From assembly GCA_949358305.1 (NCBI GenBank), contig OX442321.1:2567605-2631604 (forward strand): a DNA stretch of 64,000 bases, written 5' to 3'. The position numbers and the translations under genes were made by a program. The notes below the pieces were generated by a model, which made no database searches, had not been told where the DNA came from, and was given only the letters and a program-made list of their open reading frames with translations. Source of the DNA: Strigamia acuminata (lineage: Eukaryota > Arthropoda > Chilopoda > Geophilomorpha > Linotaeniidae). Shown one piece after another: positions 22,899-61,711 of this stretch; within the stretch, counting starts at the first letter, position 1; every line of letters starts with the position of its first letter.

Positions 22899-25800
22899 AT
22901 GGCGGTGCGTATATTACTTACTAGAAATACAACCACCGAGTTAATAACACAAAATATTTTCACAGGATCATATATTCATAAGTTACCGTCGATCCACTGG
23001 AAGTACCTTGGCCCGGTAGAATTAGGATTTCTACACACCACACTCCATCTTATACCAACTTTTTACTTGACATTTCAGTTTGCTCGAGGAAAAGTTGAAA
23101 GGCCGAAACTATACAGTTTTTATCGATCTTGAGGGACTCACGTCGGGTCGGTGGGACGAACAACTCTTGACGAAAATTAAAGAAGCTAAAATTTTTCTTC
23201 TCGTTCTCACACCCAATGCGCTTGACAGATGCTTCAATGATAAAACCTGCCAAGATTGGTTACACAGAGTAAGAAAATTCTCTTTTTCCATACACAGTGT
23301 GGTGACCCCGCGGGTGGTCGTCCCTCCAGTGGACGCCATCCGCATGAGTCACTAGGAAAGGTCAGTTCCCTCGCGTTGGCTCCGCCTTCCCCCCCTGGGA
23401 AGCGCGTGCCCCGAGGGGGTGAGGTGATGCGTGGACGGCCCCCATTGGCCGAGCCAGGCCCCTCACCCTGGCCTATATCAGGTAGAGTTTCGCGCCCTAC
23501 AAACAGAACTTACACAAACGACACCAAGAACACAGCAACTACCTCACCGTCAGGCCAACTCCACCAAAAGTTAGGATTGATCGAGGACCGCTGATTCCAG
23601 TGCAACTGTAACTCTCACGAATTTACACTGTGTGTTATTTCCCCGCGAAAGCAGGAAAATAACCCTTGTGGATTCACACGAAATAATCGACCCACGATTA
23701 TTTCCATTGCGAAGTGTCCGAGTGCCCTGTAAGAAACTCCCCGTTTCTGGACGGAGCCTTGCGACGCTAAAAACCAACCCTAGACAACAGGCACGGATAG
23801 AAGACTCGAAAGAGCATTCCACCGCGTCCGTGAACGACGAATCCGTGACGAATTAACGACAACTCGAGACGCCGCCTTTGTTCCGCCGACCACGCGGAAC
23901 CGACGACGCCATCTTGAGAAATCCTTTGTTCGACTCTGACCAAGTCGACTCGAGTTTTATACTGAGTGTATTTTAAGGCTTACGCCTATTGAATAAACCC
24001 GTTTGTTCATTTACATATACTTAGTATTCATTTGGGTAATTTACATATTTAGTAGAATCACAGGTAAAGTAATACACGTTAGCTCATTAAACCTATCACC
24101 AGGTAGGACGCGACACGTGGGGGCCTGGCCGGGATTTAGAAATAAATCTCAACTGAACTTGTGATCTCTCATTTAATATAATAACCCAAATCGAAGAATT
24201 ACTCAAAGAAATGTCAGACCAAGATGAACAATCCGCGTCTGATAACGAGCGACCTACGCTCGAAAAGGGAAAACGGACCTCCGACTATAACTTAAGGTCG
24301 GGCGGCCCAGCCCCCGAACAATCCGCGAAGGCGAAAGCCCGAGCGAATCGGAGGAAAGCAAAGGCGCAGAAAGAGGAAACAGCTGCTTCGCTCGAGGCCC
24401 TAACCGAGCCCGAGCGAGAGCCGCTCTCCTCAGATATGCCCTTTGTCGAAGACACCGATACGGAAGTCCTAGAAAATCAAGAAGAAATTCGCGATACAAC
24501 AACAGGACGAGTGCCGATACTGGTAGCCGAAGAGAAGACGGAAACTCCGAGGCGAACAACCACAGTCGACAACAACCCATCACCAGCACAAAGCCACCAT
24601 TCGGCCCCCCTAAATGAAACTCCGGCGAGAAACACGAGCGGGACCCCGATGGCCTCCCGTGCCTCGGCGAGACCTGCCCCTGTTTCCCCCGAGGTAGCCC
24701 ATTTAATTCACCTATCGCAACAGGCAGCCCGACTGAAAGCAGTAACCGATATTCCGCCGGGAACGTCAGTTTGGGACTCGATTACTATACTCACTAAAGC
24801 GATTTGCGCAGCACAGGCCCCGACGCCAGTCGCAAGACCAGCGGCGGAGACGCCTGTAGCGCAAGAAACGCCGAGTGACGTAGGTAACTTCGTGCCCAAT
24901 CCTCACAAAGCCCTTCACGAATCTCGGGAGAAAGCCCGAGAAGAATCGAGGCAGGAAACGATAAATCGTCAGCGTAGAGTGAGCGCTGAAAGGAGAGAAC
25001 TTTGGAACGAGGAAGAGGAACGACTACAGCGGGAAAAAAGAACCATGGAGAGAACGGAAGAAATGGTGCAAGAAATAAGAGAAGAGCAGGAAGCAAAAAT
25101 ACGAAGAGAATGGAATAATACCGTAGAAGGAAGGCACAGAGAGGCCCAAGACTACGAAGACCAATTCCGAGCCCTCCTAGCCCAACGAAAAGCCGAGAAA
25201 TTGCAGAAACTAAGAGAAGAAGCTCAGCGGCAACACCAGAAGTGGGAAGAGCAATACCACGAAAGGATGAAAGCCGCAAGAGCAAGGAGAGAAAAGGAGC
25301 AACTTCTTGAACAGCACGAAGAATGGGAGCGGTACAGATGGACCGACGAGTACCAAGCTAAGAAAAAAGCGATAATTGACGAGCAAAAACGATGGGAAGC
25401 CGAAAACTGGGAAAAGGAAGCGGAGAAATTCCAAAGAGAGTACGAGCAGGACGTTTCAGAGAGGAATAAAAAGGAGGATCCAAAGACGGACAAAGAGCCC
25501 ACCGGTGGCTCCGAAGCCGAAACAAAAAAGAGGAAGTCGCAGGATGACGACCAACCGGATAAAAAATCCAGAAACCGTAACCCCTCGAAACGATCCGAAA
25601 GAAGCGCCGCAATCGACGCGTTGCTTAACAAAAAGAACGCGAATAAGGACCGCGAGCGCCCAGGAAGCGAAGAGAATAAATGGTATTCTTTTTGCGGGAG
25701 CAGCGACGAAAAGGAGCCGCCGCCCTCCGGAGGTTCGAAGAAATCACGGGATGGCGAAGAAGTCCCCCCGAAGGGACCAAGAGATCACCCACAAGGCGAC

Positions 25801-28800
25801 CCTTCCGACCCCTCTGATTCATCGGACGACGACGACCAAAGTCGACCGTCATCCGGACCGCACCGAGAGAGCCGCGGCAGCAACCAGCACCATTCGGACC
25901 GACCGAATGCCTCCAACCGATCTTCGCACAGCTCTCGCCCTTCCATGCAGGAGGGGAATTTCCAGGACTCTGCCGGCCGACAATATACAATGGCTGAACT
26001 GGGTCGTGCCTTGTTGAACTCTTTCCGAAAGGAAGGAATCGACTTGGGCCACCCCGGAGATGAACATAACCGCGCCGGTGAAAGGGTCAAACGCAAATAT
26101 GGCGTGCGTAACGAGCCAGCGGCCGAAGCCACGGGCAACATCCGCTGGCAGCACTACGTACAAACGCGATTCGACGGTTCGTGGAAAGCGGGAGACCGCT
26201 TCCTCGACGAAGTCATGAGAATCAAGAAAGCTACAAAGGCGACCGTCGCCGATATGCTTACGCACGGTCTAGTGGAACTAACCACTGGATCAGCCCGCGA
26301 GTGGTACCAAGGGCTGAAAAATCCGACCTGGGACGACTTTCTCGTCCGTTTCGACCTTCGATACGGCGAGACACCAGACGAGATCAGCAACAAATTGCGC
26401 GGCCTCCGTCAAGCCCCAGGTGAAACGCTCGCCGACTACGACGCCCGAGCGAAATTACTCTTCGCCCGGGCACCGTACGAAATTAACCCTGCCGGGTTTA
26501 CGATGATTTTCTATGGGGGATTGTCAGCACATTCACAACGAATATTGCTGGACATGCGTGCTCCCCGCACTGGCAACTATCGGGATGTCAGTAATTATCT
26601 CCTAACCAATACGCTGGAGATAGAACAAAGGTATTACGCCTCACTGCCACCCGAAGAGGCGGAAGCCCACGAAAAGCGACTGATAACCAGCGCCGAACGC
26701 CATAAAGCTTCCGAGAAACTAATGAGACCGAGCGAATACCTCAGCGGCATAATGAGCCTCACTGAGGCGTCTTCGGGACGGACGTTGACACCAAAAACCG
26801 GTATAACGCTCCCAAGCAACCCGATTGCTGCCCCAAAGAAAGCTCCGACGACTACAGCGATGCAGGTGACCTCGACTGACTTAGCCACCTCGGCAAAAGC
26901 AGAAGAAGCGTCACCTCCCGCGGCGGTCGCCGAGCCGACAGAGGAATCAAGCGATGAAGACGACCTGCACGAACACCTCGAAAACTTATCGACGGGGTGC
27001 GACGACCAAGGCCCGTACCTTCATCACGCGCACCGAGCGCTAGCCATCACCCAATTCAGAGCCCACGCCCGAGCCACCAAGGAAAAAGGGGCGCCGGGCC
27101 TAAAAAGACGGTTCCCAACAGCATTCGTCCCGAAAAAACCGGGTTTCACACCCACGGGCGACAAAAGCAATATTAAATGCTACAGCTGTGGGGAATACGG
27201 CCATTATTCCGACAAATGCGAAAAAAAGGCCAAAGTCACTAGCGAGACACAAACTATGATGAAGATGATGGCAGAGTTAAATATCGCCCTGGCAAAAAAC
27301 TGCCAAGCGCAGGCGTCGTCGAAGAAATAGAATCGACTTCGTCTGCGAAAGCCGAGGAAATAACAAGGAAAAAGAAATTCCATACCGGACCTGCCGGTCA
27401 CGCCATACTTGATGCGCAGGTCAAAGACCGAGCCCAATCCGCACCAGAAAAGGAAGAAAAAGTGATACTGAGGGGCATGCAAGTGAGAACTGAGGCCAAG
27501 ACAGACGATAGTTGGGCCGAACTCCCGTTTGACTTGGAAGTCGTACCGCAGAAATTGCGAGTATTCCACTGCAACGTCTCAAAGTCACATTGCGAGACAC
27601 TCTGTATGTTACCAGTGACCATTGAAAACCAAAAGTTACTGGGACTACTGGATTCCGGAGCGGATCGTTCTTTCATATCCGAAGATCTAGTCGAGAGCCT
27701 AGACATCGAAGACAAAATGATGAAAGTCAATGAGAATGTGGAATTACTCACGGCTAATGGCTATGTAAAGCCAAGGGGCGTAATAAAAATCACCATCGAT
27801 TGGAGGGGAGGGAACCTATCCCACCCCTTCTTGGTGCTGCCATCCCACGACAAGGTATTCCTCCTCGGAATCGACATCATGGCTAAATTAAAAATACAGC
27901 CAAATCCGATAACGAGATCGTGGAATTGGATAAGCCCCGAAGGTGAAAGGCCCATTCCAGTAGTACCCCAAAAATTACTGGACGAGGCCCAAGAGAAGGA
28001 GGAATACGAGAGAGGACTGCGAAAATTCGTACAGGACTATGATTTCGTAGCCTTCGCTCTGGAATTACAAAGAAGTAACATGGTGGACACGTTGGTCGAG
28101 GAAGCCGCTCTGCAAGTCAACGAAGCATCATTGCTGAGACGAATACTTCGTAAGCACGAGCGGATCCTCACCAAAACGCCCGGAAGGACGACCGAAGCCG
28201 TACACGAGATCGAACTGACGACGGACAAACCAATTCGCGTGCCATACAAGGGGATGAATCCCCAAAAACGGGATATAGTGACCCAGATGTGTCAAGACAT
28301 GCTCGACAAAGGCATCGTCACAGAAGCATTGGGCGAATACGCGATGAGGATCGTCCTAGTAATGCGACCCGGCTCCGAGCCTCGCTTGTGTATCGACTAC
28401 CGCCCGCTCAATGCTATAACGGTGATAGATCCGATACAGATGCCCTCCATCGAAGCGATTCTCCGTGAGCTGGCTCCATTTAATTGGGTAACCACCATGG
28501 ACCTGTCAAAAGGGTACTGGCAGGTCGAACTCCGACCAGAAGATAAGCTAAAGACGGCGTTTTACTCGCCTATAGGGCGATTAATGTTCAACGTAATGCC
28601 ATTCGGACTAGTGAACGCACCAAGCACATTTCAAAAGTTAATCGAAAGCGTCCTCGGAGACATGTTACATGATTTCGTATGGGCTTATCTCGACGATATC
28701 ATTATTGCGTCAGACACTTTTGAGGAACACATAGAGCACATAGACCGAGTGGTCTCCCGTTTAGCCAAAGCTGGACTCCATGTCCACCCCGGAAAGAGCA

Positions 28801-31800
28801 AGTTCTGTAGAAAAGAACTTGCCTTCCTAGGCTATCGAATCGGAGTTGAAGGGATCGCCATTGATCCCGAAAAAGTACGAGCAATAAACGGATTCCCGGC
28901 CCCAGAAGATATAAAGGGAGTCCAGAGATTCATGGGAATGATTAATTTTTTCGGCAGGCTGCTCCCCAATTTGGCAGAAGTAGCCGCGCCCGTGACGGAC
29001 CTCCTGCGAACCGACCGCGAGTTCGCTTGGACGGCCGAATGCGAGGCCGCCTTCAACGCCATAAAACAAATGCTGGCCGACGTCGACAAAATGCCGCTAC
29101 CCGATCTAAACCGACCGTTCGTACTGCATACCGACGCCAGCCGAGTTGGCTTGGGAGCAGCCCTCTTGCAAAAACACACGTATAACGGAGTAGAGCAAGA
29201 AGTACCCTGTATGTTCATAAGCCGAAAAATACAGGGAGCCGAGAAAAACTACACGGCTACAGAACTGGAGTGCTTAGCCGTAATATGGGCTGTTCGGAAA
29301 TTTCGTGACTACCTAGAGTATACGAATTTCGAAGTGCAGACCGATCATCAAGCATTAAGTTGGTTGATGAAGTTAAAAGAACCATCCGGCAGACTCGCCA
29401 GATGGCAACTCGAACTCATGGCGTGCGACATAACAATAACATATCGCCCCGGAAAATTCAATCAGGTAGCCGACGCTTTATCGCGAGCCCCGGCGTCCGA
29501 CCCCCATGGTCCGGACGACGACGGCGAAGACGATTCGCGTCTACTTTATTGTCCGACGCCCAGACGGATTTGGCGCCTTCGTAAAGCGAACGAATTGCCC
29601 GTGATGGAGCCCGCTGATAAAACTTTCTGTGGTTTCTGGACTCGAACGTACCAGCCAGCTGGAACAACCGACACAAAGACGGAGGCAGCCCCTCCAGTCG
29701 TCCAAGAGACCCCAAAAACTCCGCTGCGTGCCTTCACGGCCACAATAGAAAAGAAAACGCAATACGCACCGCCAACAAGACTCGAGTTTATCGAACATCA
29801 AGCGACCGACGCCAAATGTCAAATAATGACTCGATTCCTAGAAAAAGGGGAGTATCCGATCGACATGACGAATCCTCATCGCAGGAAGCAATTTGCTAAG
29901 GAAGCCACCAGCTACCTGATAGACGACGGGTTACTACTGAAATACCACCCGACGTTTCAGGACGACCTTAGCGGAGCGGGAAACGCAATAAAAGTGGTGG
30001 TGCCTGTCTCGCTACACACCCGATTGCTGTGGCTGATGCACGGGCACCCACTCGCTAGCCACGCCGGCATAGCAAGAACATTGTACCGCGTGAAGCAGAT
30101 ATTTTTTTGGCCCGGAGCCCGCCAGAAAATAACGAAATTTATTCGTCACTGCTCCCGGTGCCAAGCATGTCGACCTCGCGACAAAGTAGCCAGAAACACA
30201 ATGTCTCTTGGTCCCTATGCTCCCTTCGACTGTTGGAGTGTTGACTTGATGGGCCCCAAGCCCACAACAAGCAACCGCAACATGTATATACTTGTAATTA
30301 TGGACGTAGCGACCCGTTGGCCCGAGTTGTACGCCCTCGCGAAGCCCTCGGCGGAAAATATCGCCGAGTGTCTTTACGACGTGGCGTTGCGATTTGGGTT
30401 TCCTCGGAAGCTCATTTCCGATAACGGGCCCCAATTCAGGTCCAAAATATACAAAGAGTTCTGCAAGAAATTTAAGATGGAAATTTCAAACACCTCCACT
30501 TATAATCCTCAAACGAACCCCGTGGAAAGGCTAAACAAAGACGTGAAATACGCTTTGACGGTGTTCACCGACGTACACAATCGGTGGGATGAATATCTAC
30601 GTGAGATAGCGTTCAGCATTCGCTCCACCGTATCACGAACACGCGACTTCTCACCGGCGTTTCTTAATTTCGCCCGCGAACTAAGAATGCCGTGGGACCC
30701 ACGAGTTGCGGAGGCAGTGAATGTACTGGACCCCGCTAACCCACACGAGTACGTATGTCGTTTGGAACAGACAATTTCCGACACATATCAGCACCTAATG
30801 ACTCACATCTTTGACCTACGGGAAAGAGTCGCAGAAAAAGAAGGAGATTTAGATTTTACGAATTTCAAGGTCAACGACCTGGTGTGGAAGGAAACACACA
30901 TATTATCGAATGCTGCGAGGGGCATTGCCGCGGGTCTGGCCGACAAAAGGGACGGACCCTATGTAATTGTGGCAGAACACGGCGGCAACGCCTACCAATT
31001 GCGCAGATTAACAGATAATAAAAATTTCCAGTCGATCAACGGCCGGGAATTAAAACCATATCTACCGGAATTTCGCCAAGAAATATGGCTGGAAGGTCAG
31101 ACACACAGCGGCCAAGGTGGCACAGTGGTTGACACATTCCAAAATAACAACGAAATCGGCGAAGGAGCAGACGAAGATGACGAATTTTTCGACGCCGAAT
31201 CCCAACCCGCAGATGCTCCCGATCCAGCGGGGCAAACAATCTCGGAGAGGGAGGAAGCAGAAGAAAATACTTCTGAAAAAGAAAAAACAAAATTAAAAGA
31301 AGTAAACAATACCGCAACATCGGAGATGAGCGACCAAGTGGGAGCCGATACCACTCGCGAGCAAAAACGCAACCTTCGACCACGAAAATCGAAGAATCCG
31401 TTCATCCAAGACGGAAAAATCACCGGGAGAAACTAGAAAGAAATAAAAAGGTCAAAACATGTGATTGCGGCGTCGTAAAATTGAAGAAATTCACTTACGA
31501 GAGCTGCAACGCATGTCGAGACATAAAAATTCGGCTAAGTCCGAACTTCGTCGTCAGTTATCACCGTCAATATCAAAAAGCGAGATTGCATGACGTATCG
31601 GTCGAAACCCCGTAGCGTAACATGCGCACGGCTCGATCGCATGCGTCGGCCCCGTAGCTCCACGCTCGCACGGACAAATCTCGTACCGTACGAGACGCGT
31701 CCGTGACCCACAATCCTCCGCGCCGATCAGTTCCGTTTCCGATTGTTCGCTGACACGAAAAGCACGCGTTCCTGACGATTTCCCCGTGAAATCGTTTTCA

Positions 31801-34800
31801 GAACCTCTTTTCTTCTCGAATAATTGGATTTTTTCTTGATGGCTGATCGACGCAACCCGAGAATTGACCCCGACGCCTCGTCCTCCAGAGACGAGAGCGA
31901 AGGATTGGTCATCGAGGCGGAGGAAGAAGATTGGGATGAGCCGGAGCAACTGCAGGTAACATAAGATCTTCCCGTAAGATCAAAAAATGTAATCCGCCGA
32001 CATCCGACACCGTGTCGGATTGTGGCGCGTGATAACTTGACTGATGAATTCTTTTTGTATTTATTTTGTTGATTTTTCGGTAGAATCAGAGCTCGGGCGC
32101 GGAAACCTTTTTCGTGCTCGAAGATCTCCGATCTCCAAACCCAGACAAAGGAATTGTTTGCCAAGATGGCGTCGCTAAAAAATTAGAAAAAATGGAGAAC
32201 TGAAAGTAACGTTGAAACTTCGTAATAAATTAAAATACGAGTAGAAAGGCTTAAATAAAAACAACCGATTCTTTTATATTACGCGACGTTGTTTTGAGCG
32301 GACCTCCTGAATCTAAAAAAAAGGTAGCAAGAGAAAGACTGAGCTACACCAGCGGCCAACCACCGCGGACCTGCGAATAATCAGGACAGAGAGGAGCGGC
32401 CACAACCGAAAGAAATTTTGGTGCCACCGCCGATCTCACAATTTTTATTCCAAATATTTATAAAAAGAGTATCGAAATTAAAATGTATTTAATGCTTCAG
32501 ATCGACCCGCTACAATCATGGGACGCCCTGCCGTCTACAGTGCCCACCAAGGGCAACATCTTCCGGCTAGCGATGCCAGAATTTATCCGGCTAGCCTATC
32601 CAGAGGAAGACACTGATGTCTGGGCCCTGAGATTACGCTACTCCCGAGCGATCGAAGAATTCTTTGACCGACCCAGGACGCTGGTCGAATGTTTGCCCAG
32701 GCAAATACGAGAAAGGGTGGGGCCACGGATCGATCCCGACTTCGATCCGTCGAGCCCTATTTTTTCAGAGCTACTGCGAGCTCGGTACGGCGGTACCGAG
32801 GCGGACGAGCGCACCGGCCTTCGGTGGCGCAACGCCGCAACGCCGGAAGAGCGGAGACGAATCGTCCGCGAAGAGATCGCTCACCTAGAGCGAACGGCAA
32901 CCAGTGCCGTAATACGAGTTTTGGAGCGGAATGGTTTCTCGACGGGAGAAATCAAAGAATGGTTACGAGAGGCCCGCGAAGACCGCCAAGGAACACCGTG
33001 GGTGCCGCCCGTCGGCTTTATCGCCACTCAAGCCGAAATGTGGCAACTGCATCAAGTCGGCATCCTTCAGAGCGGCACACGAGTCAGGAGGCTGAAGAGA
33101 CAGGCCTCAAGCTCAAACGGCGGCCCCGCTCAGATTAGGCAGGCCCTCTCCACCGAGGAGAGCGGCCCGTCGACGAGTGGGACGCAACCCGGCCATTCGA
33201 ACAGTTGCGACTCGAGAACTCAAACGGCCGTCCAGTCGGGAGGCCTGCGCTCAGTTGTGATTGTACCCGCCTCATCCAAGGAATTGCGGCTGGATCCAGA
33301 GCCCGGACCGTCCAACTCGTGGAGCGACCGGGTCGACGAACAGGAGAGACAAGCGGCTGCCACAGCCGCGCCCTCTCTCTTCCTAGTGCGTACCGTCCGG
33401 CCGTCGGACGAAGAGTCGACCATGTTCGACCAAGCGGAACCTCCGTACAAAATCCGAAGAGACTCGGTAACCTCTTCGCACGTCGCAACCGCCAACACCA
33501 GGCGCAACCGGAAGAGCAGAGCCCGCCGCAGGCAAAGAATGCAAACCCTGCTAGCAAAACTCGCCGCCGCCGAGAAGAGGCCGACCGCCGCCGGTAGTTC
33601 GGACTCGCTCAGAGCCGAACCCACAGCCGTGTCGTCCTCCAATCGGAAGAAGGGACCCGAAGGATGGTGCGAAACCATTGAAGAAAAAATGGATTTGGAC
33701 GAAGGGCCAAAAACGGAACAGCCCATGTCACGAAGAGAACTGGCCGAAGTGCTCACCAACGCCTTTCGCGGATTCTCCGCGAACCGGCCGACGCCCTCTA
33801 CGGACCAAACCGCGCTCGCACCACCCACACAAACCTTCCATCCGGTCCAACCAAGCTGGCCGCCTCTCCTCGAGGCCCCACCACCAGCCATAACTCGATG
33901 GACGCCCCCTGGAAACATGCGACCAGGCGAGGCGTTCCTAGAATACGTCCCGCACCGACCACCAGGACTGGCTCCCCCGCCAGTTCCTCCGCCGACTCAG
34001 GCACCGAGGCCGGCTCGTGACGCCATGTGGTACGAAGAGAAGGAGCGGGATGCCCGAAACCGACGAGAGGCAGCGAATCCCACCTTGGGAGAACTACAGG
34101 CCCACCAGGCTGAATGTGAGCACCCCGCTACCGCCGAACGGGCCTTGACGCAGGCTGACGCCGCTCAAACGGAGCACATCAATTGGGCGATAGCCCAAAT
34201 GCGCAAACTATCCGCCACTTTTTCGGCAGATCCAAACCGCGCCCTGCCGCTCAGCCGGAGCAGCTTAAACGCCGAGGTAACACGCGTGATGTCCGAAATC
34301 CTGTCTCCCGCCCTCTTCCTGGACGGCCGACAGTCGATGGCCGCCTGGACCATAATCGACAGAGAGGGCGTATTCCTGAACAGGGCCCTCTACCAACTTT
34401 GGGCCGAGTTTACACCAGCCGCGGCCGACCTCCGATTCGAGTTGGCCCGCTCCATGGAAAACCCGAATTTCCAGTTCGCGAAGATGCGTTCGATGGCATT
34501 CCGCTACCAAAACCCAGGGGTCCACCCGACGTTGCTACGAAAGGTCGCCGAAGAGGCGTCCGCCAGGGAAGAGGCGTCCGCTAAGGAGGAGGCCGTCCGC
34601 CCCATCGTGGTGGCCGAGACGGTTCCTCCCGAGCCTGTCGCCCGGAGTTATATCCCGACCCCAAAGCCGGTATTCCCGAAGGAACGAAGGACGAGTCAGC
34701 GACCGAAGCTGGTCCCGAAGCGATCGCGCAGGGGGCCTCGAACTCCACCGCTGCCTTCGCCCTCGCCGCCTTCTACGAGCATGGACGCCCTGTCCATAGA

Positions 34801-36805
34801 GGAGAACACTCCACCACTGGAGATTCCACTACCGCCGTCTCCCCCACCACTGCCTACACCGGCGACTGCGCCGACCCAGCTCTATCTACGACTGGAAGTA
34901 GAATATCCGAATTTACAGATGTCGGAGACAACGCGCCGAGCGTTATTGGCCACTCACCGCCAAGGTGAATCGTTCCTGCAATGGATGGCGAAGGAAATCA
35001 GGTTGACCAACGACCCGATCCTCCATCAACGGCTCCAGCGGGCTCACCGAGAGCCCCTCACACCGCCGGAATCGCATCGGATGCGTCGATGTCCCGACCG
35101 CTTCCCCACTTCGACCCAAATCTGGGTACATGAAAGAAGAAGCAGCACGGACGGACCTCCCGGCCACGCTCAATTCTTCATTAACGAATCGGAGAATCCA
35201 GCGAATCTGACCACATCGCTGCCCGATGGCCTTCCTCCGCCTCCGCCAGCCGTTAATCTCCCAATCCTACGTCCCCGCGGAGGGAAGTTGCCCGCTATTG
35301 CGCTGAGGGACCAGATAGGGTAATCGCCCCGATCGATGATCGAAGCTGGGGGAGGGACGTGTGGTGACCCCGCGGGTGGTCGTCCCTCCAGTGGACGCCA
35401 TCCGCATGAGTCACTAGGAAAGGTCAGTTCCCTCGCGTTGGCTCCGCCTTCCCCCCCTGGGAAGCGCGTGCCCCGAGGGGGTGAGGTGATGCGTGGACGG
35501 CCCCCATTGGCTGAGCCAGGCCCCTCACCCTGGCCTATATCAGGTAGAGTTTCGCGCCCTACAAACAGAACTTACACAAACGACACCAAGAACACAGCAA
35601 CTACCTCACCGTCAGGCCAACTCCACCAAAAGTTAGGATTGATCGAGGACCGCTGATTCCAGTGCAACTGTAACTCTCACGAATTTACACTGTGTGTTAT
35701 TTCCCCGCGAAAGCAGGAAAATAACCCTTGTGGATTCACACGAAATAATCGACCCACGATTATTTCCATTGCGAAGTGTCCGAGTGCCCTGTAAGAAACT
35801 CCCCGTTTCTGGACGGAGCCTTGCGACGCTAAAAACCAACCCTAGACAACAGGCACGGATAGAAGACTCGAAAGAGCATTCCACCGCGTCCGTGAACGAC
35901 GAATCCGTGACGAATTAACGACAACTCGAGACGCCGCCTTTGTTCCGCCGACCACGCGGAACCGACGACGCCATCTTGAGAAATCCTTTGTTCGACTCTG
36001 ACCAAGTCGACTCGAGTTTTATACTGAGTGTATTTTAAGGCTTACGCCTATTGAATAAACCCGTTTGTTCATTTACATATACTTAGTATTCATTTGGGTA
36101 ATTTACATATTTAGTAGAATCACAGGTAAAGTAATACACGTTAGCTCATTAAACCTATCACCAGGTAGGACGCGACAACAGTACATATCTTGACTGTGGT
36201 TTTGCAACCGACAGGAAATAGCAGCCGCAATCACCAACAAGTGCAATATTATTCCAATTACACACCCAGATTTCAGATTCCTGCTGGAGCTCAATACGAC
36301 TCGTTACCTCAGACGGTTAAAGAAGCTTGTGGACAGCAAGGAATCCCGTAAAAATTATTTTAAATTTCTCCTTTTGCGTGGTACATCGGTAAGGGCTTTC
36401 AAGTGAATGTGAATACTCTGCCGAAAGCAGAAAATCCAACTCCAGGTATACATTTTAGCTTATGTTAATCACACATTTCACTAATAATTTTTCTTCAGCG
36501 GGAATTGCAGTTAAAGTCTATGTTATTGGTCGTGAGAGACCAATAAGGGTGCCATTGCTTGCCGGTCAATCCACAATCAAGGATTCAAAAAAGCAAATCA
36601 AGATCGACAAATGCTTCAAGAACGCAAACAACGCAATTTATCACGTAAATTACTTTCGTATTGATTACTATCTAATGAATAGTAAATACCGGTAATTCCA
36701 ATTTCTTTCCAGCAAAAAAATGAGGATGACCAATTAGAGCAATTAATTGATATTCACCAATTAAGCAACGGGGATCAAATTCATGTTACCTTTGAAGCAG
36801 AATAA
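22899..36805 (+). CDS. TIR-domain protein gene, split by element D
   Basis: Predicted exons are 22899-22904, 22966-23015, 23079-23268, 36215-36347, ~36404-36445, 36499-36644 and 36713-36805. The product starts MADHIFISYRRSTGS, a TIR box 1. Exon 3 has VFIDLEGLTSGRWDEQLL and LVLTPNALDRC, both very like the SARM1 TIR. Exon 4 starts E-I-A-A-A-I, and its Glu aligns with the SARM1 NADase glutamate. Junction phases agree for introns 1-3 and 5-6. Introns are 61, 63, 62 (without element D), 56, 53 and 68 bp. The C-terminal ~80 residues (VKVYVIGRERPIRV ... GDQIHVTFEAE) look like a beta-grasp fold. There is no SAM or ARM region, so it is a TIR-only type. Exon 4 may contain a frameshift near 36283. Poly(A) signal is at 36825-36830. 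A role in innate immunity or NAD cleavage is inference. Confidence 0.7.
23298..24115 (+). repeat. 5' LTR of element D
   Basis: It runs TGTGGTGACC to ACGCGACA. CTATATC at 23473-23479 is a possible TATA box and AATAAA at 23992-23997 a poly(A) signal. That signal could end TIR gene transcripts early. Confidence 0.95.
24118..24135 (+). promoter_or_regulatory. PBS of element D (tRNA-Pro-like)
   Basis: TGGGGGCCTGGCCGGGAT lies two bases after the LTR. It matches the complement of the tRNA-Pro 3' end except for a few bases in the middle (positions 8-11). Confidence 0.65.
24211..27330 (+). CDS. Gag of element D
   Basis: The product is 1,039 residues. The first ~600 residues are charged and low in complexity, with a long Glu/Arg-rich predicted coiled coil (about 235-410) and Ser/Pro-rich tracts. 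A capsid-like core sits near 643-810 (GNIRWQHYVQTRFDGSWKAG, ending near IEQRYYASL). It shares long stretches with element E Gag. One CX2CX4HX4C knuckle, CYSCGEYGHYSDKC, is near 990-1003. It ends TAG at 27328. A slippery A_AAA_AAC 28 bases before the stop feeds pol. Gag is unusually long for gypsy elements, mainly through its N-terminal extension. The motif LRSGGP near the N terminus is also shared with E. Confidence 0.93.
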   Translation: MSDQDEQSASDNERPTLEKGKRTSDYNLRSGGPAPEQSAKAKARANRRKAKAQKEETAASLEALTEPEREPLSSDMPFVEDTDTEVLENQEEIRDTTTGRVPILVAEEKTETPRRTTTVDNNPSPAQSHHSAPLNETPARNTSGTPMASRASARPAPVSPEVAHLIHLSQQAARLKAVTDIPPGTSVWDSITILTKAICAAQAPTPVARPAAETPVAQETPSDVGNFVPNPHKALHESREKAREESRQETINRQRRVSAERRELWNEEEERLQREKRTMERTEEMVQEIREEQEAKIRREWNNTVEGRHREAQDYEDQFRALLAQRKAEKLQKLREEAQRQHQKWEEQYHERMKAARARREKEQLLEQHEEWERYRWTDEYQAKKKAIIDEQKRWEAENWEKEAEKFQREYEQDVSERNKKEDPKTDKEPTGGSEAETKKRKSQDDDQPDKKSRNRNPSKRSERSAAIDALLNKKNANKDRERPGSEENKWYSFCGSSDEKEPPPSGGSKKSRDGEEVPPKGPRDHPQGDPSDPSDSSDDDDQSRPSSGPHRESRGSNQHHSDRPNASNRSSHSSRPSMQEGNFQDSAGRQYTMAELGRALLNSFRKEGIDLGHPGDEHNRAGERVKRKYGVRNEPAAEATGNIRWQHYVQTRFDGSWKAGDRFLDEVMRIKKATKATVADMLTHGLVELTTGSAREWYQGLKNPTWDDFLVRFDLRYGETPDEISNKLRGLRQAPGETLADYDARAKLLFARAPYEINPAGFTMIFYGGLSAHSQRILLDMRAPRTGNYRDVSNYLLTNTLEIEQRYYASLPPEEAEAHEKRLITSAERHKASEKLMRPSEYLSGIMSLTEASSGRTLTPKTGITLPSNPIAAPKKAPTTTAMQVTSTDLATSAKAEEASPPAAVAEPTEESSDEDDLHEHLENLSTGCDDQGPYLHHAHRALAITQFRAHARATKEKGAPGLKRRFPTAFVPKKPGFTPTGDKSNIKCYSCGEYGHYSDKCEKKAKVTSETQTMMKMMAELNIALAKNCQAQASSKK
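27294..27300 (+). promoter_or_regulatory. -1 ribosomal frameshift heptamer, gag/pol of D
   Basis: A AAA AAC in the gag frame (GCA AAA AAC). After a -1 slip the next codon is CTG at 27300, and the pol frame is open from there through its first ATG at 27462. The same heptamer sits at the same place in element E. Confidence 0.85.
27300..31436 (+). CDS. Pol of element D (PR-RT-RNase H-integrase)
   Basis: It is expressed by -1 frameshift; the first ATG is at 27462, giving 1,324 residues from there. Numbering from that Met, protease LDSGADRSF is near 64, RT has LCIDYRPLN near 309, MDLSKGYWQV and YLDD at 409-412, and RNase H has HTDASRVGLGAALLQ near 555. Integrase has the HHCC region (HGHPLASHAG, CSRCQAC), SVDLMG near 925, SDNGPQF near 985 and PVERLN near 1018. 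A GPYVIV (GPY/F) motif is near the end, followed by an acidic tail with no chromodomain. All catalytic residues are present, so the element could be autonomous. Confidence 0.95.
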   Translation: MPSAGVVEEIESTSSAKAEEITRKKKFHTGPAGHAILDAQVKDRAQSAPEKEEKVILRGMQVRTEAKTDDSWAELPFDLEVVPQKLRVFHCNVSKSHCETLCMLPVTIENQKLLGLLDSGADRSFISEDLVESLDIEDKMMKVNENVELLTANGYVKPRGVIKITIDWRGGNLSHPFLVLPSHDKVFLLGIDIMAKLKIQPNPITRSWNWISPEGERPIPVVPQKLLDEAQEKEEYERGLRKFVQDYDFVAFALELQRSNMVDTLVEEAALQVNEASLLRRILRKHERILTKTPGRTTEAVHEIELTTDKPIRVPYKGMNPQKRDIVTQMCQDMLDKGIVTEALGEYAMRIVLVMRPGSEPRLCIDYRPLNAITVIDPIQMPSIEAILRELAPFNWVTTMDLSKGYWQVELRPEDKLKTAFYSPIGRLMFNVMPFGLVNAPSTFQKLIESVLGDMLHDFVWAYLDDIIIASDTFEEHIEHIDRVVSRLAKAGLHVHPGKSKFCRKELAFLGYRIGVEGIAIDPEKVRAINGFPAPEDIKGVQRFMGMINFFGRLLPNLAEVAAPVTDLLRTDREFAWTAECEAAFNAIKQMLADVDKMPLPDLNRPFVLHTDASRVGLGAALLQKHTYNGVEQEVPCMFISRKIQGAEKNYTATELECLAVIWAVRKFRDYLEYTNFEVQTDHQALSWLMKLKEPSGRLARWQLELMACDITITYRPGKFNQVADALSRAPASDPHGPDDDGEDDSRLLYCPTPRRIWRLRKANELPVMEPADKTFCGFWTRTYQPAGTTDTKTEAAPPVVQETPKTPLRAFTATIEKKTQYAPPTRLEFIEHQATDAKCQIMTRFLEKGEYPIDMTNPHRRKQFAKEATSYLIDDGLLLKYHPTFQDDLSGAGNAIKVVVPVSLHTRLLWLMHGHPLASHAGIARTLYRVKQIFFWPGARQKITKFIRHCSRCQACRPRDKVARNTMSLGPYAPFDCWSVDLMGPKPTTSNRNMYILVIMDVATRWPELYALAKPSAENIAECLYDVALRFGFPRKLISDNGPQFRSKIYKEFCKKFKMEISNTSTYNPQTNPVERLNKDVKYALTVFTDVHNRWDEYLREIAFSIRSTVSRTRDFSPAFLNFARELRMPWDPRVAEAVNVLDPANPHEYVCRLEQTISDTYQHLMTHIFDLRERVAEKEGDLDFTNFKVNDLVWKETHILSNAARGIAAGLADKRDGPYVIVAEHGGNAYQLRRLTDNKNFQSINGRELKPYLPEFRQEIWLEGQTHSGQGGTVVDTFQNNNEIGEGADEDDEFFDAESQPADAPDPAGQTISEREEAEENTSEKEKTKLKEVNNTATSEMSDQVGADTTREQKRNLRPRKSKNPFIQDGKITGRN
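31608..31673 (+). promoter_or_regulatory. Hairpin repeats after pol in element D
   Basis: Two imperfect copies of CCCCGTAGC...GCACGG occur, at about 31608-31632 and 31650-31673. The first has the core CGTAGCGTAACATGCGCACG, which is identical in element E (minus strand, 54198-54219). Each can fold as CCGT/ACGG stems. The role is unknown; control of splicing or export of unspliced RNA is a hypothesis. Confidence 0.6.
31839..31964 (+). CDS. Small acidic exon/ORF of element D
   Basis: A 41-codon ORF (MADRRNP...) rich in Asp and Glu, containing VIEAEEEDWDEPEQLQ. After residue 39 the sequence is CAG/GTAACA, a donor in phase 0. The matching acceptor is ATGCTTCAG/ATC at 32500, so exon 31839-31955 would join in frame to the third ORF through a 545-bp intron. 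Element E has an equivalent acidic exon (with LAIEHEDEENWD) and the same phase. A possible acceptor TTTTCAG before this exon at 31795-31801 suggests a further upstream splice. It was found by comparing the two elements. Confidence 0.65.
   Translation: MADRRNPRIDPDASSSRDESEGLVIEAEEEDWDEPEQLQVT
32483..35323 (+). CDS. Third ORF of element D, unknown function (not an envelope)
   Basis: The open frame is 946 residues. The mature exon probably begins at 32501, after the acceptor, so the first six residues would be intronic. No signal peptide or transmembrane segment is visible. Three modules are conserved with element E: N-terminal 1-200 (TQAEMWQLH near 182), central 510-680 (REAANPT, GRQSMAAWTIIDREGV) and C-terminal 805-890 (HQRLQRAHR, WVHER). 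They are linked by Pro/Ser/Arg-rich linkers. A basic stretch follows the first module (RVRRLKRQ). It sits where retroviruses carry env but looks cytoplasmic or nuclear. I recognise no family. Confidence 0.85.
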   Translation: MYLMLQIDPLQSWDALPSTVPTKGNIFRLAMPEFIRLAYPEEDTDVWALRLRYSRAIEEFFDRPRTLVECLPRQIRERVGPRIDPDFDPSSPIFSELLRARYGGTEADERTGLRWRNAATPEERRRIVREEIAHLERTATSAVIRVLERNGFSTGEIKEWLREAREDRQGTPWVPPVGFIATQAEMWQLHQVGILQSGTRVRRLKRQASSSNGGPAQIRQALSTEESGPSTSGTQPGHSNSCDSRTQTAVQSGGLRSVVIVPASSKELRLDPEPGPSNSWSDRVDEQERQAAATAAPSLFLVRTVRPSDEESTMFDQAEPPYKIRRDSVTSSHVATANTRRNRKSRARRRQRMQTLLAKLAAAEKRPTAAGSSDSLRAEPTAVSSSNRKKGPEGWCETIEEKMDLDEGPKTEQPMSRRELAEVLTNAFRGFSANRPTPSTDQTALAPPTQTFHPVQPSWPPLLEAPPPAITRWTPPGNMRPGEAFLEYVPHRPPGLAPPPVPPPTQAPRPARDAMWYEEKERDARNRREAANPTLGELQAHQAECEHPATAERALTQADAAQTEHINWAIAQMRKLSATFSADPNRALPLSRSSLNAEVTRVMSEILSPALFLDGRQSMAAWTIIDREGVFLNRALYQLWAEFTPAAADLRFELARSMENPNFQFAKMRSMAFRYQNPGVHPTLLRKVAEEASAREEASAKEEAVRPIVVAETVPPEPVARSYIPTPKPVFPKERRTSQRPKLVPKRSRRGPRTPPLPSPSPPSTSMDALSIEENTPPLEIPLPPSPPPLPTPATAPTQLYLRLEVEYPNLQMSETTRRALLATHRQGESFLQWMAKEIRLTNDPILHQRLQRAHREPLTPPESHRMRRCPDRFPTSTQIWVHERRSSTDGPPGHAQFFINESENPANLTTSLPDGLPPPPPAVNLPILRPRGGKLPAIALRDQIG
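35345..35358 (+). promoter_or_regulatory. Polypurine tract of element D
   Basis: GCTGGGGGAGGGAC stands immediately before the 3' LTR. Confidence 0.8.
35360..36177 (+). repeat. 3' LTR of element D
   Basis: It is 818 bp, practically identical to the 5' LTR, and followed by the target duplication ACAG. Confidence 0.95.
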
Positions 36806-49228: not shown

Positions 49229-50245
49229 TGTCGCGCTCAACTCTAACCGTCGCTAACTCGTGGGTTGATTACTTAATTCGACTAACTCACTACCGCTTTG
49301 CTCAAGCGGTTTACCCAAAGAAATGATTACACAGATATAAAAGGTAAAATATAATATAGATTTATTCTGCGGGGCAATGTACAGATATATCTTATATATA
49401 TATATAAAAAGGGTAAGTAAAAGGTAAATCGGAATGGGTGATGGGAAATGGAAAGGTAAAGGTAAGATGAAAGCTGGCTGGAATCGGCGAGGTCGTCTGT
49501 TGTCTCGTGCGTGTCCAAGATGGCGTCCTCGTTGTAGCAACGTGATGTCGTCTTGGGCCGGCGTGGCAATATGGCGTCCTCGGCTCGTCTCTGGCTGGTC
49601 CTTCGGGCTCACGCTGGTCGGGCGCGAGTGAATGCTTAGTTAAAAGGCTTACTTCAGTCTGTTGTCTAGGTTTTTGTGTGGTGTCCGGCGATCACACAGC
49701 GGCGGACTCTTCTGGCTCCCGGCGGTCACACAGCGGCGGGAACGCTCGTCGTGGTTTTACTGCAGTTTAGGCTTGTGCGACCGTTTGTCTGCACAACTCG
49801 CTAAACTGGAGTGGTTTTTACTATTTCTAGCTGGTGTGCTAAAATAGTGTGGTAATCTTATCTCGCAGGTTACTCTGCGGAGTTTGACACTGACCAAACG
49901 TACTCACGGTAAATTGTCCTTTGTCCTTGGTCAATCCCAGTATATTTACTTGGGCCTGATCTTGTAGGACGACGGGTTTACGTGTGTTTCTCGTTTGATG
50001 GTTGTGTTGGTTCTGCCCGCTCAGTGCAAGGCACATTCCTTTGCACAAAGCGGGGTTGACAGGTGACCGGAATCACCCAATGGTGGGGTGGACGAGCCAT
50101 CCCCACTCCCTCAGGGCAGACGCCTGTCCATTGACTAGATGTCAATGCACTGAGGGAAGGGAGACGCGCTTGCGGCTCCCCTTACACCCGAAACGAGGTC
50201 ACGAGAGAAACTCTTCGTTGACCCCGGTCCAGTCGGGTCACAACA
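49229..50245 (-). repeat. 3' LTR of element E
   Basis: On the minus strand it runs TGTTGTGACCC to GCGCGACA. It includes a TATATATATATAAG stretch (about 49393-49406) and AATAAA about 35 bases further on (49360-49365). Confidence 0.93.
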
Positions 50246-50258
50246 CTTCCCCCTCCGA
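50246..50258 (-). promoter_or_regulatory. Polypurine tract of element E
   Basis: On the minus strand CGGAGGGGGAAG directly precedes the 3' LTR. Confidence 0.8.
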
Positions 50259-50281
50259 GCTCAGACCGTGGGGCTGAGCGA

Positions 50282-53071
50282 TCACTTCTTTCCTGGGGGA
50301 CCCGACACTGAGTCCGTCACCTGGGCGTAACTCACTCCAGGGACAGGCGGTTGAGTGCCGGGTGGCGCGGGTAGATCGCCTACTAGCGCCGAGGACCGAT
50401 CTCGGGGGTCCTCATGCTCCGTAATGAAGCATAATGCATGGCCGTCAACTGGCTCATGCGGGGCACGCGTCCTCTCGTGTAACCAAACGCTCGGGATGTA
50501 GGCGGAGAAGCCGGTGTTCGTATGCCGGATGGCATTGGCTTCCGCTGTCGTCACTGGCGCACGGTGGGCTCTCAACAACCTCTGGTGGAAGATGAGGTCT
50601 TTAGTCTTCCGTATCTGGTTGTGGAGCCAGATGAAGACCGATTTGCCTTTGTCCCGCTGCGCGAGGATAAACCTCCTGGTCGCCGTCGTCATCGACAGGT
50701 GGGGAAACTCGTCGATGATTCGCCCATAATAGTCTGGTGGAGGCGGTGCCGGCTTCGGCTTCTGGGTGGCCGCGGGAATCACGGCTTGCGTCGTTGTCGC
50801 CGCTCGGGCCAGTGAGGTCCCGGGCGGTGTCGGCTTCGTTTGCTCGACGGACCTGACGGGTGGCGTTCGGCACAGCAAGCGCTTTGGTTTACCCGCCACT
50901 TCGAACAGGGCGGGTCCTTGCGGGGATATCTCCGCAGGCATCGGTGGCGGAATCGGAACTTCGCTCGTCGGCGAGATCACCATGTCTACATCCTCTGCCG
51001 ATTCTTCCGTCTGGATGGTCAAGGCGCGCAGTTGTTGGGTAGGCGCCGCTGTCCAGGTGGCGGAGGTGTAACGAAACGCCGTGCTTCGCAACTTGTACCC
51101 CTCAAATTCGGGGTTTACCACATCCCTGGTTAGCTCGTACCGAGTCAACACAGGGTCGGGCAGAATGGAGCTCCACTCTGCGAGGAGTGCACGGGGAACC
51201 TGTACACCCTCTCTGTCCACGACAGACCATGCGGCCATCGCCTGACGCCCTTCTCCGAAGAGTGCTGGGGTTAGCAGCTGCATCATGACCTTGGTCAATG
51301 ATAGCTGTAGGCTGCGACGATTCACTGGATTCGATCGCTCTGAATCCGCAGTGAAGGCGCACGAGAGCTTACTCATCATCGCCGTTGCCCATTCGACGAA
51401 ATATCGCTGGGCTTGATCCACACCTCGCAAGGCGGGTGCGGAAACTCTTGGGTCTTCCATCACGAAGCGAAACGCTGAGAGCTCGGAGATAGTCGGGTTG
51501 GCGGCTTCTCTCGCGAGTCGCGCTTCTTCGTCTCGCCTCTCGAAGAACAGGGCCGAGGAACCGGGTCGGGGTCGGCTCGGCCTGTAAATGTCGGTCAAAT
51601 TGGCTCGACATTCCTGCATAATGCTCTGTCCAACGGGGAGAGGGACTGAGCGGTCGGTGGGTAAATCCGGCGGATCGCTCGAATTCAACAACGACGGTGG
51701 CGGCAGGTCCGGAGGCGGCTGCGTCTTGGTCGGCAGCGTCGGCGTCGGCAGCGGCGGTGGCGGCTGCGTCGGCGGTGGTGGCGTCTCCGTCGTCTGCACC
51801 CCAGTCATTGCGACTTGGGGCGCCGGGAGATGTTGTCCGGAGCCTGAGGGCTGTACGATGGCGGTTGGCATGCCATCGGGTCGCGGTCGCGAATTTATGT
51901 AGTCTGCGAGCCACCTTGCCACCTCGTGTGGGGTCACCTTTCCGTCGGTGACAACACCCATCTTCCTGGCGTGTTTCATCGCGGGATCGAAACGTGTCAG
52001 TTTCGTCCGCTTCATCTGAGTCAGAATCTCGCGAAGGTCCCGCGTATCTGCCGCTGGGACGTTTCGCTCACCTGACTGGCTACCACTTCGTCGACCCGCT
52101 CTCTTGGAGATGTAGGCGGGTTCGGGGATGGGACGGCCCCGAGCTTCGCACCTCGCGAAGTATCGCTCCTTGCGATCTTTTTTCCGCTGCTCGCGATGAG
52201 TCAGCGGACGTCTAGAAGTGCTGGGACGAGAGACTCGCTCTTCGTCACCAGACATCCAAACCTCCTTGCACTCCTTACCGTCTTTAATCTGACGGTTTAC
52301 GAAAATTCGCGGTCGGGAATACTGCGAAGGGTCACGCACCGTACTAGTGGATGGCCCAGCTTCGTTGCCTTCAGTCGTGTTTTGAGTGACACGCTGCTTC
52401 TTGGCTGTCACCGGGGAACGCGACTGGCTGTTCCCGGCGCCTTTGGAGCGCTTGCGCTTCCGCGGGTAGCTGCTTTTGGGCCCCAAAATCCCCAGGTGGT
52501 GGAGCTGCCACATCTCGGCTTGGGACGTTAAAATTCCCATCCGAGGTCTCCACTGGGGCGTACTCTCTCCCAATCGCAGCCTCTCAAACCACAGATGAAT
52601 ATCATCCGCGGTCATCCCCTCGTTTTGGAGGATGCGCTCGGCCACTGCCGCAGCGGTATCCACCAGCTGTTGTCTATACTGCTGATAGATGGCCTCACGG
52701 GCCTCTTCTGTCTCGGCTGCTCGCCACGCATGCAGCACGTGTTCCTCCGCCGGAGTGCCAGTGTACTGACTTGACAATCCGGGGTGGAAAATTGGCGATT
52801 TCGGGTCCTCGTCACGAGCTAACTCTGTGGCGATACCTTCGCGCATCCCCTCCGGGAACGTGTCCAGGAGCGTACAGTCTCGTACCCAACGTCGGGCGAT
52901 GCATCGGGAATGTAGTATTCGCAGGCGCCAAGGGTCGGCGTCTTCGCCGAAACATCGTCGGTAAAATTCGGGCAGCGCGCCTCGAAATATCCCGCCACGA
53001 GCGATGCAAGCGGGGTCTAATGGTCCCCATGTTTTACGTAGTGCCATCTGGAAGGATGGAGAAATAAACAA
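50282..53071 (-). CDS. Third ORF of element E, unknown function
   Basis: The open frame is 929 residues. A strong acceptor (CATCCTTCCAG) ends at 53048, so the spliced exon probably starts at 53047 with MALRKTWG. It matches element D's third ORF in three modules: N-terminal (SQAEMWQLHHLGIL near 180), central (REAANPT, GRQAMAAWSVVDREGV near 505-670) and C-terminal (FHQRLLRAHRAPVT, VWLHER near 790-865). The linkers differ greatly. A basic cluster PRKRKRSKG near 203 resembles a nuclear localisation signal. There is no signal peptide, membrane span or zinc finger. The conserved islands despite linker divergence suggest selection on the protein. Confidence 0.85.
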   Translation of the reverse strand: MFISPSFQMALRKTWGPLDPACIARGGIFRGALPEFYRRCFGEDADPWRLRILHSRCIARRWVRDCTLLDTFPEGMREGIATELARDEDPKSPIFHPGLSSQYTGTPAEEHVLHAWRAAETEEAREAIYQQYRQQLVDTAAAVAERILQNEGMTADDIHLWFERLRLGESTPQWRPRMGILTSQAEMWQLHHLGILGPKSSYPRKRKRSKGAGNSQSRSPVTAKKQRVTQNTTEGNEAGPSTSTVRDPSQYSRPRIFVNRQIKDGKECKEVWMSGDEERVSRPSTSRRPLTHREQRKKDRKERYFARCEARGRPIPEPAYISKRAGRRSGSQSGERNVPAADTRDLREILTQMKRTKLTRFDPAMKHARKMGVVTDGKVTPHEVARWLADYINSRPRPDGMPTAIVQPSGSGQHLPAPQVAMTGVQTTETPPPPTQPPPPLPTPTLPTKTQPPPDLPPPSLLNSSDPPDLPTDRSVPLPVGQSIMQECRANLTDIYRPSRPRPGSSALFFERRDEEARLAREAANPTISELSAFRFVMEDPRVSAPALRGVDQAQRYFVEWATAMMSKLSCAFTADSERSNPVNRRSLQLSLTKVMMQLLTPALFGEGRQAMAAWSVVDREGVQVPRALLAEWSSILPDPVLTRYELTRDVVNPEFEGYKLRSTAFRYTSATWTAAPTQQLRALTIQTEESAEDVDMVISPTSEVPIPPPMPAEISPQGPALFEVAGKPKRLLCRTPPVRSVEQTKPTPPGTSLARAATTTQAVIPAATQKPKPAPPPPDYYGRIIDEFPHLSMTTATRRFILAQRDKGKSVFIWLHNQIRKTKDLIFHQRLLRAHRAPVTTAEANAIRHTNTGFSAYIPSVWLHERTRAPHEPVDGHALCFITEHEDPRDRSSALVGDLPAPPGTQPPVPGVSYAQVTDSVSGPPGKK

Positions 53072-53869: not shown

Positions 53870-53983
53870 TCATGTGCCGATGCCGACTTCTACCTGATCG
53901 GGATGGACTTGGTTTACATCGCGGTCCCAGTTTTCCTCGTCCTCGTGCTCTATGGCCAGCACGTCGTTCTCTTCCTCGTCCAT
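53870..53983 (-). CDS. Small acidic exon/ORF of element E
   Basis: A 37-codon ORF (MDEEENDVLAIEHEDEENWD...) with a donor CAG/GTAGAA after residue 30, at 53894/53893, in phase 0. Its Asp/Glu-rich core with a conserved D/N-W-D and nearby Gln resembles the exon at 31839 in element D. Splicing to 53047 would give one ~951-residue protein. Confidence 0.65.
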   Translation of the reverse strand: MDEEENDVLAIEHEDEENWDRDVNQVHPDQVEVGIGT

Positions 53984-54196
53984 GGCGAGGAGCGCGCACA
54001 AAAAGCTCAATCACGATTGAAAAAAAGGATGATAAAACTATCTCAAAAAACTCGATAAAAACGTTAAAAACGAGGATCACGCACGAATGCAGCGATCAGC
54101 TGTGAAAAGCGGAAGTTCGTGTGAACACGAGGTAATCGCGATGGATTCTGGGTAATATACTCCAGAACCCGGGTGTTTGAGACTAGTGCGCACCTA

Positions 54197-61709: not shown

Positions 61710-61711
61710 CG

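Follow-up and report, generated by a model that had tools for sequence, protein, structure and literature searches.

A conserved, predicted two-exon third gene and an associated motif array in Ty3/gypsy elements of the centipede Strigamia acuminata

Background

In animal gypsy elements, a third gene is usually taken to be env or what is left of it. In this study, we report the characterisation of a window of 64,000 nucleotides (nt) from the centipede Strigamia acuminata (contig OX442321.1, positions 2,567,605 to 2,631,604 of the forward strand), in which two gypsy-type long terminal repeat (LTR) elements, D and E, each carry a large third open reading frame (ORF), here called ORF3, between pol and the 3' LTR. 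The analysis supports ORF3 as a conserved non-envelope gene with a real function, as an initial annotation of the window had proposed, and adds to that proposal a predicted upstream exon and intron, a motif array, further families and recombination between lineages. The annotation had offered four candidate functions with no preference among them.

Accessory genes of insect gypsy elements are already known, in the form of spliced env genes (PMC12992720) and of short ORFs termed sORFs (PMC11952523), as far as the available text of the two reports goes. The Env-F genes of insect endogenous retroviruses (ZAM, Beagle, springer and idefix subclades) resemble ORF3 in their position between pol and the 3' LTR, in the joining, predicted for ORF3, of a main exon to a short upstream exon, and in belonging to elements that recombine with exchange of internal sequences (PMC12992720). 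In the same text, however, the upstream part of Env-F is an exon before or in gag, or an AU dinucleotide, whereas the predicted exon 1 of ORF3 follows pol. Env-F also has a signal peptide, furin site, fusion peptide, conserved cysteines and a membrane span (PMC12992720), whereas ORF3 has few cysteines and no convincing span, and no relation between the two was found with Pfam.

The sORF1 and sORF2 genes of the MDG1 group are, like ORF3, non-env accessory genes of LTR elements, and some sORF genes lie downstream of pol in Lepidoptera (PMC11952523, available part). As described there, the sORFs encode about 70-110 residues, sORF2 is a membrane protein and the transcripts are unspliced, while the predicted ORF3 products have 951-986 residues; by this length and by the absence of a convincing span they depart from sORF2/FAST-like proteins, which are short and have a membrane span and an N-myristoylation motif. 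Other env-like third genes, including Bagy2, share the position and orientation of ORF3, and some (Bagy2) are spliced; in the parts of that literature available to us they are treated as env-like, several have membrane domains, and no motif array is described for them. Our literature search, which left subscription papers mostly outside and did not cover Repbase, found no earlier account of a non-env gene that lies downstream of pol, is large, has two exons and comes with a motif array of its own.

Results

The ORF of D at 32483-35323 (+ strand) is genuine, being open over 946 codons, and its counterpart in E occupies 50282-53071 (- strand; 929 codons). BLASTP aligned the two products at 33% identity over 445 columns (197 bits, 3e-56), with a second segment at 34% over 240 columns (120 bits, 9e-32); judged by these scores, the similarity is far beyond chance and the conservation noted in the initial annotation holds. 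The three islands of conserved peptides that it quoted were all found, each inside a longer conserved module. The modules, termed N, M and C, comprise residues 1-200, 501-672 and 793-905 of exon 2 of the predicted gene described below. In D they lie on the + strand at 32501..33112 (N; all-helical domain model, QAEMWQLH motif), 34001..34516 (M; REAANPT and GRQ.MAAW...DREGV) and 34877..35215 (C; HQRL.RAHR and W.HER), with ratios of nonsynonymous to synonymous substitution (dN/dS) within D of 0.138, 0.096 and 0.063, respectively.

Over the whole of exon 2, dN/dS calculated by the Nei-Gojobori method was 0.164 in family D (27 copies, 351 pairs), 0.246 in E1, the family of element E (7 copies), and 0.133 in a further family, E2 (9 copies); the pairs are not independent, the copies being related, and copies with broken frames were excluded, which lowers the ratio. 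Within families, the modules gave 0.11-0.17 (N), 0.05-0.11 (M) and 0.04-0.10 (C) and the linkers 0.19-0.54, a contrast that is not explained by the exclusion of broken copies. For comparison, the end of pol gave 0.08 (D against F, a fourth family) and 0.15 (E1 against E2). These ratios indicate that ORF3 is under purifying selection. No positive selection was seen, the linkers also being below 1. The linkers had been described as unalignable, and their divergence is real, but they are not free of constraint. The D-against-E ratio suggested as a check was computed and proved unusable because synonymous sites are near saturation (proportion of synonymous differences, pS, 0.74 over exon 2), and was replaced by ratios within and between closer families. 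A value near 1 in the islands, which would have spoken against the proposed function, was not found (modules 0.04-0.17), nor was an env match with Pfam. No match to a captured host gene was found either, such an origin being probed weakly because genome searches rank element copies first.

The genome (237.5 Mb, 157 contigs) was searched for further copies. With D ORF3 as query, at least 42 full-length matches, 38 of them without internal stop, were obtained among the best 48 of 2166 candidates scored; with E ORF3, at least 49 matches, 45 of them without stop, among the best 49 of 2436. Both sets are biased towards good copies and give minimum numbers. Counted over the whole genome, back-translated motifs gave 519 sites for ORF3 N, 528 for ORF3 M and 531 for integrase, and the reversed patterns gave 0 matches each. 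The copies read fall into four families, D, E1, E2 and F, the last known from one copy read. D and E look intact and recent, as had been stated, but they are not an isolated pair, belonging instead to families with hundreds of copies.

Among the first 100 integrase sites listed, all on contig C1, 94 are followed within 20 kb, on the same strand, by the ORF3 N motif, and in 90 of these it lies within 3.2 kb, at two sharp distances of about 2.5 and 2.8 kb. Three of the other six have the M motif 1.3-1.9 kb downstream, nearer than usual, apparently because a deletion has shortened ORF3, and the remaining three show neither motif; one of these, the site at C1:31751743, has a variant integrase motif and may belong to a relative that lacks ORF3 or carries a divergent version. 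Conversely, an upstream integrase motif is missing for six of the first 100 ORF3 sites. ORF3 accompanies pol about one to one, and this retention, together with purifying selection, upholds the claim of a conserved third gene with a real function. A second ORF3, at G000:C10:2659436-2662222, 41.5 kb from that of window E, scores identically to it, and three broken D copies (G000:C1:42405967, C1:42432349 and C115:124928) have equal scores; these equal-scoring copies may be young duplications or assembly duplicates.

By strong inference from conservation, the reported ORF is exon 2 of a predicted two-exon gene. In D (+ strand), predicted exon 1 (31839..31955) comprises 39 codons, is acidic and ends CAG/GTAACA, the slash marking the exon boundary; a predicted phase 0 intron of 545 nt (31956..32500) separates it from exon 2 (32501..35323; 940 codons and stop), which is the reported ORF minus its first 18 nt. 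In E (- strand), the corresponding features are a predicted acidic exon 1 of 30 codons ending CAG/GTAGAA (53894..53983), a predicted phase 0 intron of 846 nt (53048..53893) and exon 2 (50282..53047; 921 codons and stop). The exons would join at CAG/ATC in D and CAG/ATG in E. E2 and F have the same short exon starting with ATG between pol and ORF3, with a CAG/GTA donor in phase 0, and the exon-1 peptides of the four families are related, with an acidic stretch around a common W-D. The pyrimidine tract at the predicted acceptor of D is poor.

Exon 1 was intact (ATG, open frame, GT donor) in 35 of 37 loci (L002-L038) in a test that did not require the donor, with lengths of 87, 90, 93, 96, 117 or 120 nt, all multiples of three. 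It was retained in 10/11 D loci tested and in all 17 E1 loci identified, and was not found in L035 (the same locus as L084, with foreign DNA in the intron). A CAG precedes exon 2 in 44/44 copies, as read by a script that searched for a Gln codon there. Between E1 and E2 the proportion of nonsynonymous differences (pN) in exon 1 was 0.20 and pS 0.71, and between D and F 0.16 and 0.82, over few codons, which indicates that exon 1 is evolving as coding sequence.

The annotated start of the ORF, the ATG at 32483, is unlikely to be where the gene begins, since it is gone in 4/27 D copies (L051 and L056-L058) and a predicted exon lies upstream of it. ATGs at or just before the acceptor in D, E1 and E2, and the early stop of the exon-1 frame past the predicted donor in D, E and F, would suit an unspliced arrangement in which ORF3 is translated from an ATG at or near the acceptor and exon 1 is a small ORF of its own. 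We consider this highly improbable, given the loss of the D ATG just described and the agreement of donor and acceptor phases in all four families. Moreover, in the F copy read no in-frame ATG precedes the conserved domain, and a stop codon lies upstream of the acceptor, its end 15 nt away; the domain of F therefore depends on a start further upstream.

One to four copies of a motif, CCCGTAGC-N9/10-GCACGG, lie upstream of exon 1: two in D, three in E, one in the F copy read and four in some elements. The D array (31609..31673, + strand) consists of two CCCGTAGC-N9-GCACGG copies at 31609-31631 and 31651-31673, and the E array (54198..54308, - strand) of three, at 54308-54285, 54261-54239 and 54220-54198. 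All five motif copies of the window are in these arrays, with none elsewhere at up to one mismatch and one further match, in the gag of D, when two mismatches are allowed. The genome holds 1080 motif sites against 0 for the reversed pattern. Each of the first 100 sites lies upstream of a same-strand ORF3 within 20 kb, 96 of them within 2.2 kb, and of the 53 ORF3 sites in that stretch, 51 are preceded by an exact motif copy at no more than 2.5 kb. One 23-nt copy is identical between D and E despite the near-saturated synonymous sites.

For most single motifs, though not for every one, a hairpin with a bulged A can be drawn (six cases, z-scores from -4.3 to 0.0), and no compensatory changes were seen in the hairpin arms. 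Because the folding is mixed and compensatory change is lacking, the motif may be either a DNA site or an RNA hairpin. A special RNA structure in the array region (z about -3 to -6) was considered and dropped, as gag, pol, ORF3 and the intron score alike and a second shuffle method agrees. Rfam and tRNA searches of the array region were empty or returned chance matches. In general, RNA of D and E is more stably folded than dinucleotide shuffles (12 stretches from gag, pol, gap, intron and ORF3; z about -2.6 to -5.7), and the excess is often present on the complementary strand too, in coding and noncoding stretches alike. Separately, a GCTAAGTCC stretch near the pol stop is common to all four families (31530-31545 in D; about 1420-1435 in L085); its context, TTCGGCTAAGTCCGAA in D and TTTGGCTAAGTCCAAA in F, is a possible stem with one compensatory change.

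The array also adjoins a switch between sequences. E1, represented by window E, and the E2 copy L081 are 86-99% identical over the end of pol and 81-95% over the gap up to the array; past the array, identity is 39-74% through the remaining gap, exon 1 and intron, and against three E2 copies exon 2 and the first part of the LTR show 51-83%. In E coordinates (- strand), the switch from E1-like to divergent sequence falls at 54145..54196 in three E2 loci, the likelihood breakpoint being about 54196 for L081 and L082 and 54145 for L083; the fourth E2 locus, L084, was not informative. In L081 the mismatches were 77/1202 before and 105/298 after the breakpoint (Fisher p 2e-34, at a place chosen post hoc). 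Since the intron diverges too, selection on the protein alone cannot explain the drop, and the lineages have recombined. As the alignments indicate, E2 is a mosaic in which a similar pol is joined to a divergent ORF3 and 3' LTR just after the array, most simply through template switching. The evidence amounts to one event common to related copies. Between D and F no comparable jump in identity was seen, but both parts are near saturation there.

An exchangeable gene is as expected of a gene in conflict with the host. Exchange between lineages, and fast-changing linkers beside conserved modules, would fit a product that counters host defence, the piRNA pathway being one example, by directly binding a defence protein without contacting the array. 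We regard this as very unlikely, because the linkers, at 0.19-0.54, show no positive selection and the motif array would be left unexplained.

The predicted spliced products of the reference copies have 979 (D), 951 (E1), 986 (E2) and 967 (F) residues, with an isoelectric point of 8.5-9.9, 10.5-11.7% Pro, 9-12% Arg and 0.5-1.1% Cys. Basic stretches are present, such as RRNRKSRARRRQRMQ in D; RX(R/K)R sites occur in D and F and not in E1 and E2, as found by a motif scan. The highest 19-residue hydropathy was 0.92 in D, 1.07 in E1, 1.39 in E2 and 1.65 in F, in the same M-module helix each time, compared with 1.03 for D gag and 1.32 for D pol; the helix carries charged residues in the D and E versions. 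The absence of a membrane span and of a known fold, noted in the initial annotation, was borne out in that hydropathy gave no convincing span in D, E1, E2 or F, where Env-F has one, and searches of the ORF3 domains gave no Pfam, NCBIfam or PDB relative above cut-off. The N module was modelled as a compact helical domain (predicted local distance difference test score 83.3, predicted template modelling score 0.79) that had no fold match in PDB or among viral models.

These properties bear on whether ORF3 replaces env, serving transmission or cell-to-cell transfer without a classical envelope. Insect elements without env can transfer by way of another protein, according to the available part of one report (PMC11952523), and the exchange of ORF3 together with the LTR resembles the swapping of infectivity genes. 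The lack of a convincing membrane segment and of a Pfam env match makes such a role quite improbable, as does the contrast between sORF2, given there as 63-107 residues with a membrane span (PMC11952523), and ORF3, of about 950 residues without one.

An origin of ORF3 from gag was rejected, neither ORF3 being similar to its own gag by BLASTP and no zinc knuckle or capsid domain being found with Pfam. A profile comparison of the N module with the C half gave no similarity. The M or C module, where the structure model is poor, may hold a capsid fold without sequence similarity. The main rival to the regulatory role proposed below is that ORF3 is a structural partner of Gag in assembly, packaging or nuclear import, with the array as a packaging or regulatory signal. 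Helical modules on Pro-rich linkers and the high basic content suit a structural or RNA-coating protein, ORF3 occurs nearly 1:1 with pol, and a motif in unspliced RNA could serve packaging. We nevertheless hold it to be unlikely, because ORF3 has neither gag similarity nor a zinc knuckle and a separate spliced message would probably be unusual for a major particle protein; the envelope substitute and the direct antagonist of host defence are less likely than this.

Outside the genome, no ORF3 relative was confirmed in viral contigs (two peptide patterns, 33 pattern matches). A protein search with ORF3 gave no relative among 7988 candidates, probably being flooded by the low-complexity linkers, and the N module of E gave none among 1613. 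The same protein database yielded 364 proteins to a pol query, the best 38% identical over the whole stretch, with relatives in Prorops, Trichogramma, Nasonia, Lasius, plants, spiders and a moth; the database therefore includes some insect elements.

Element D (23298..36177, + strand) consists of LTRs at 23298-24115 and 35360-36177 that are 99.88% identical to each other, a gag ORF (24211-27330), a pol ORF (27462-31436) and the two-exon ORF3 gene. Element E (49229..62728, - strand) has the same organisation, with LTRs at 62728-61712 and 50245-49229 (99.8% identical), gag at 61666-58556 and pol at 58532-54462. By eye, D is flanked by an ACAG target duplication and has TG..CA ends, and E is flanked by AAGT; the empty site of E is preserved in a near-identical copy of the repeat into which E inserted. 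Both elements look complete and young. Pfam identified a zinc knuckle in the gag ORFs, of about 1040 residues, of both elements (in D slightly under the cut-off, 18.4 of 20.8 bits), and protease, reverse transcriptase (RT), RNase H and integrase in both pol ORFs. The LTRs, target duplications, zinc-knuckle gag and protease-RT-RNase H-integrase order place D and E in Ty3/gypsy (Metaviridae). Both gag ORFs carry a very long N-terminal extension of about 540 aligned codons (24211-25970; 61666-59930), with just 25% identity between the two elements, where the part holding the capsid and zinc knuckle has 53%.

E sits inside the second copy (44882-49228 and 62725-64000) of a repeat whose RT and RNase H frames are broken; the first copy of this repeat (12852-18466), 99.7-99.8% identical, supplies the empty site. 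At 5729-12851 lies a young copia-type element with 99.8% identical LTRs, in which a 298-codon ORF without Pfam match precedes a 1685-codon gag-pol ORF. Other dispersed repeat blocks are at 2524-5733, 20386-22589 and 41839-44888, the first holding a large inverted repeat of a satellite-like unit of about 35 nt (3837-4116).

Discussion

As ORF3 is under selection in reverse-transcribing elements, it serves the element. We tentatively propose, from the sequence features described, that the spliced product is an intracellular, probably nuclear, regulator of its own element, perhaps acting through the array. A nucleic-acid-linked nuclear role is favoured because of the basic stretches, the long linkers, the lack of a convincing membrane segment and the adjacent array. 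The product would consist of an acidic leader exon, the helical N domain, Arg-rich stretches, and the M and C modules on Pro/Ser/Arg linkers. It would bind DNA or RNA of the element, most plausibly at the CCCGTAGC...GCACGG array, and would either promote transcription against host silencing or promote export of unspliced RNA; recombination could replace ORF3 and the LTR by a divergent version while pol stays similar.

Several points weigh against this proposal. The link between protein and array is one of proximity and co-occurrence, and the array could instead serve as a promoter, in packaging or as a signal to host factors. The evidence from folding for a hairpin in array RNA is mixed, and RNA of the whole element is equally stable relative to shuffles. 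Pfam and profile searches recognised no nucleic-acid-binding domain in ORF3, and the hydropathy of the M-module helix of F, at 1.65, approaches usual membrane cut-offs. Finally, in the D copy L006 (G000:C10:7187212-7193031) a 460-nt deletion has removed exon 1 and parts of the gap and intron while exon 2 is still open, which fits either a recent deletion or a dispensable exon.

A wider form of the proposal, possible but rather doubtful, is that these elements are an animal LTR clade encoding a sequence-specific regulator of its own; this large, spliced orphan protein would recognise the array, free the element from silencing or export its unspliced RNA, and be swapped by recombination beside the array. 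A large gene that resembles neither env nor an env remnant, with a predicted intron and an element-specific signal, is retained by hundreds of element copies in a single genome. If ORF3 acts on the array, a regulator dedicated to opposing host control has arisen in an animal retrotransposon, and the conserved motif offers a direct handle on binding; if ORF3 is an assembly factor instead, it still adds a gene class to Ty3/gypsy elements.

Among the described systems, VANC of the Arabidopsis VANDAL transposons is alike in manner, having conserved domains with variable regions, an intron-bearing gene, and short target motifs that are arrayed in tandem within noncoding DNA of the element itself (PMC5735166, available part). 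The ORF3 elements likewise carry tandem motifs in their own noncoding DNA, their targeting by ORF3 being putative. VANDAL elements, however, are plant DNA transposons, and VANC has DUF1985/DUF287 domains, neither of which ORF3 matches with Pfam; binding and demethylation have been demonstrated for VANC (PMC5735166), whereas ORF3 is likened to it from sequence alone. Plant VANC is the closest in manner to ORF3, and no kinship is claimed.

The Rev and Rex proteins of complex retroviruses are regulators of RNA export, with an arginine-rich stretch, a multi-exon gene and a cis-acting RNA element. The arginine-rich stretches of ORF3, its two predicted exons and a possible cis element would be the corresponding features, but ORF3 is many times larger than Rev or Rex, and an export signal or response element would be hypothetical for it. 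Rev-like export would be the RNA version of a VANC-like regulator. If the wider proposal is true, ORF3 would either be the animal equivalent of plant VANC in its manner of action, with no kinship implied, or represent a Rev-like system in elements other than retroviruses.
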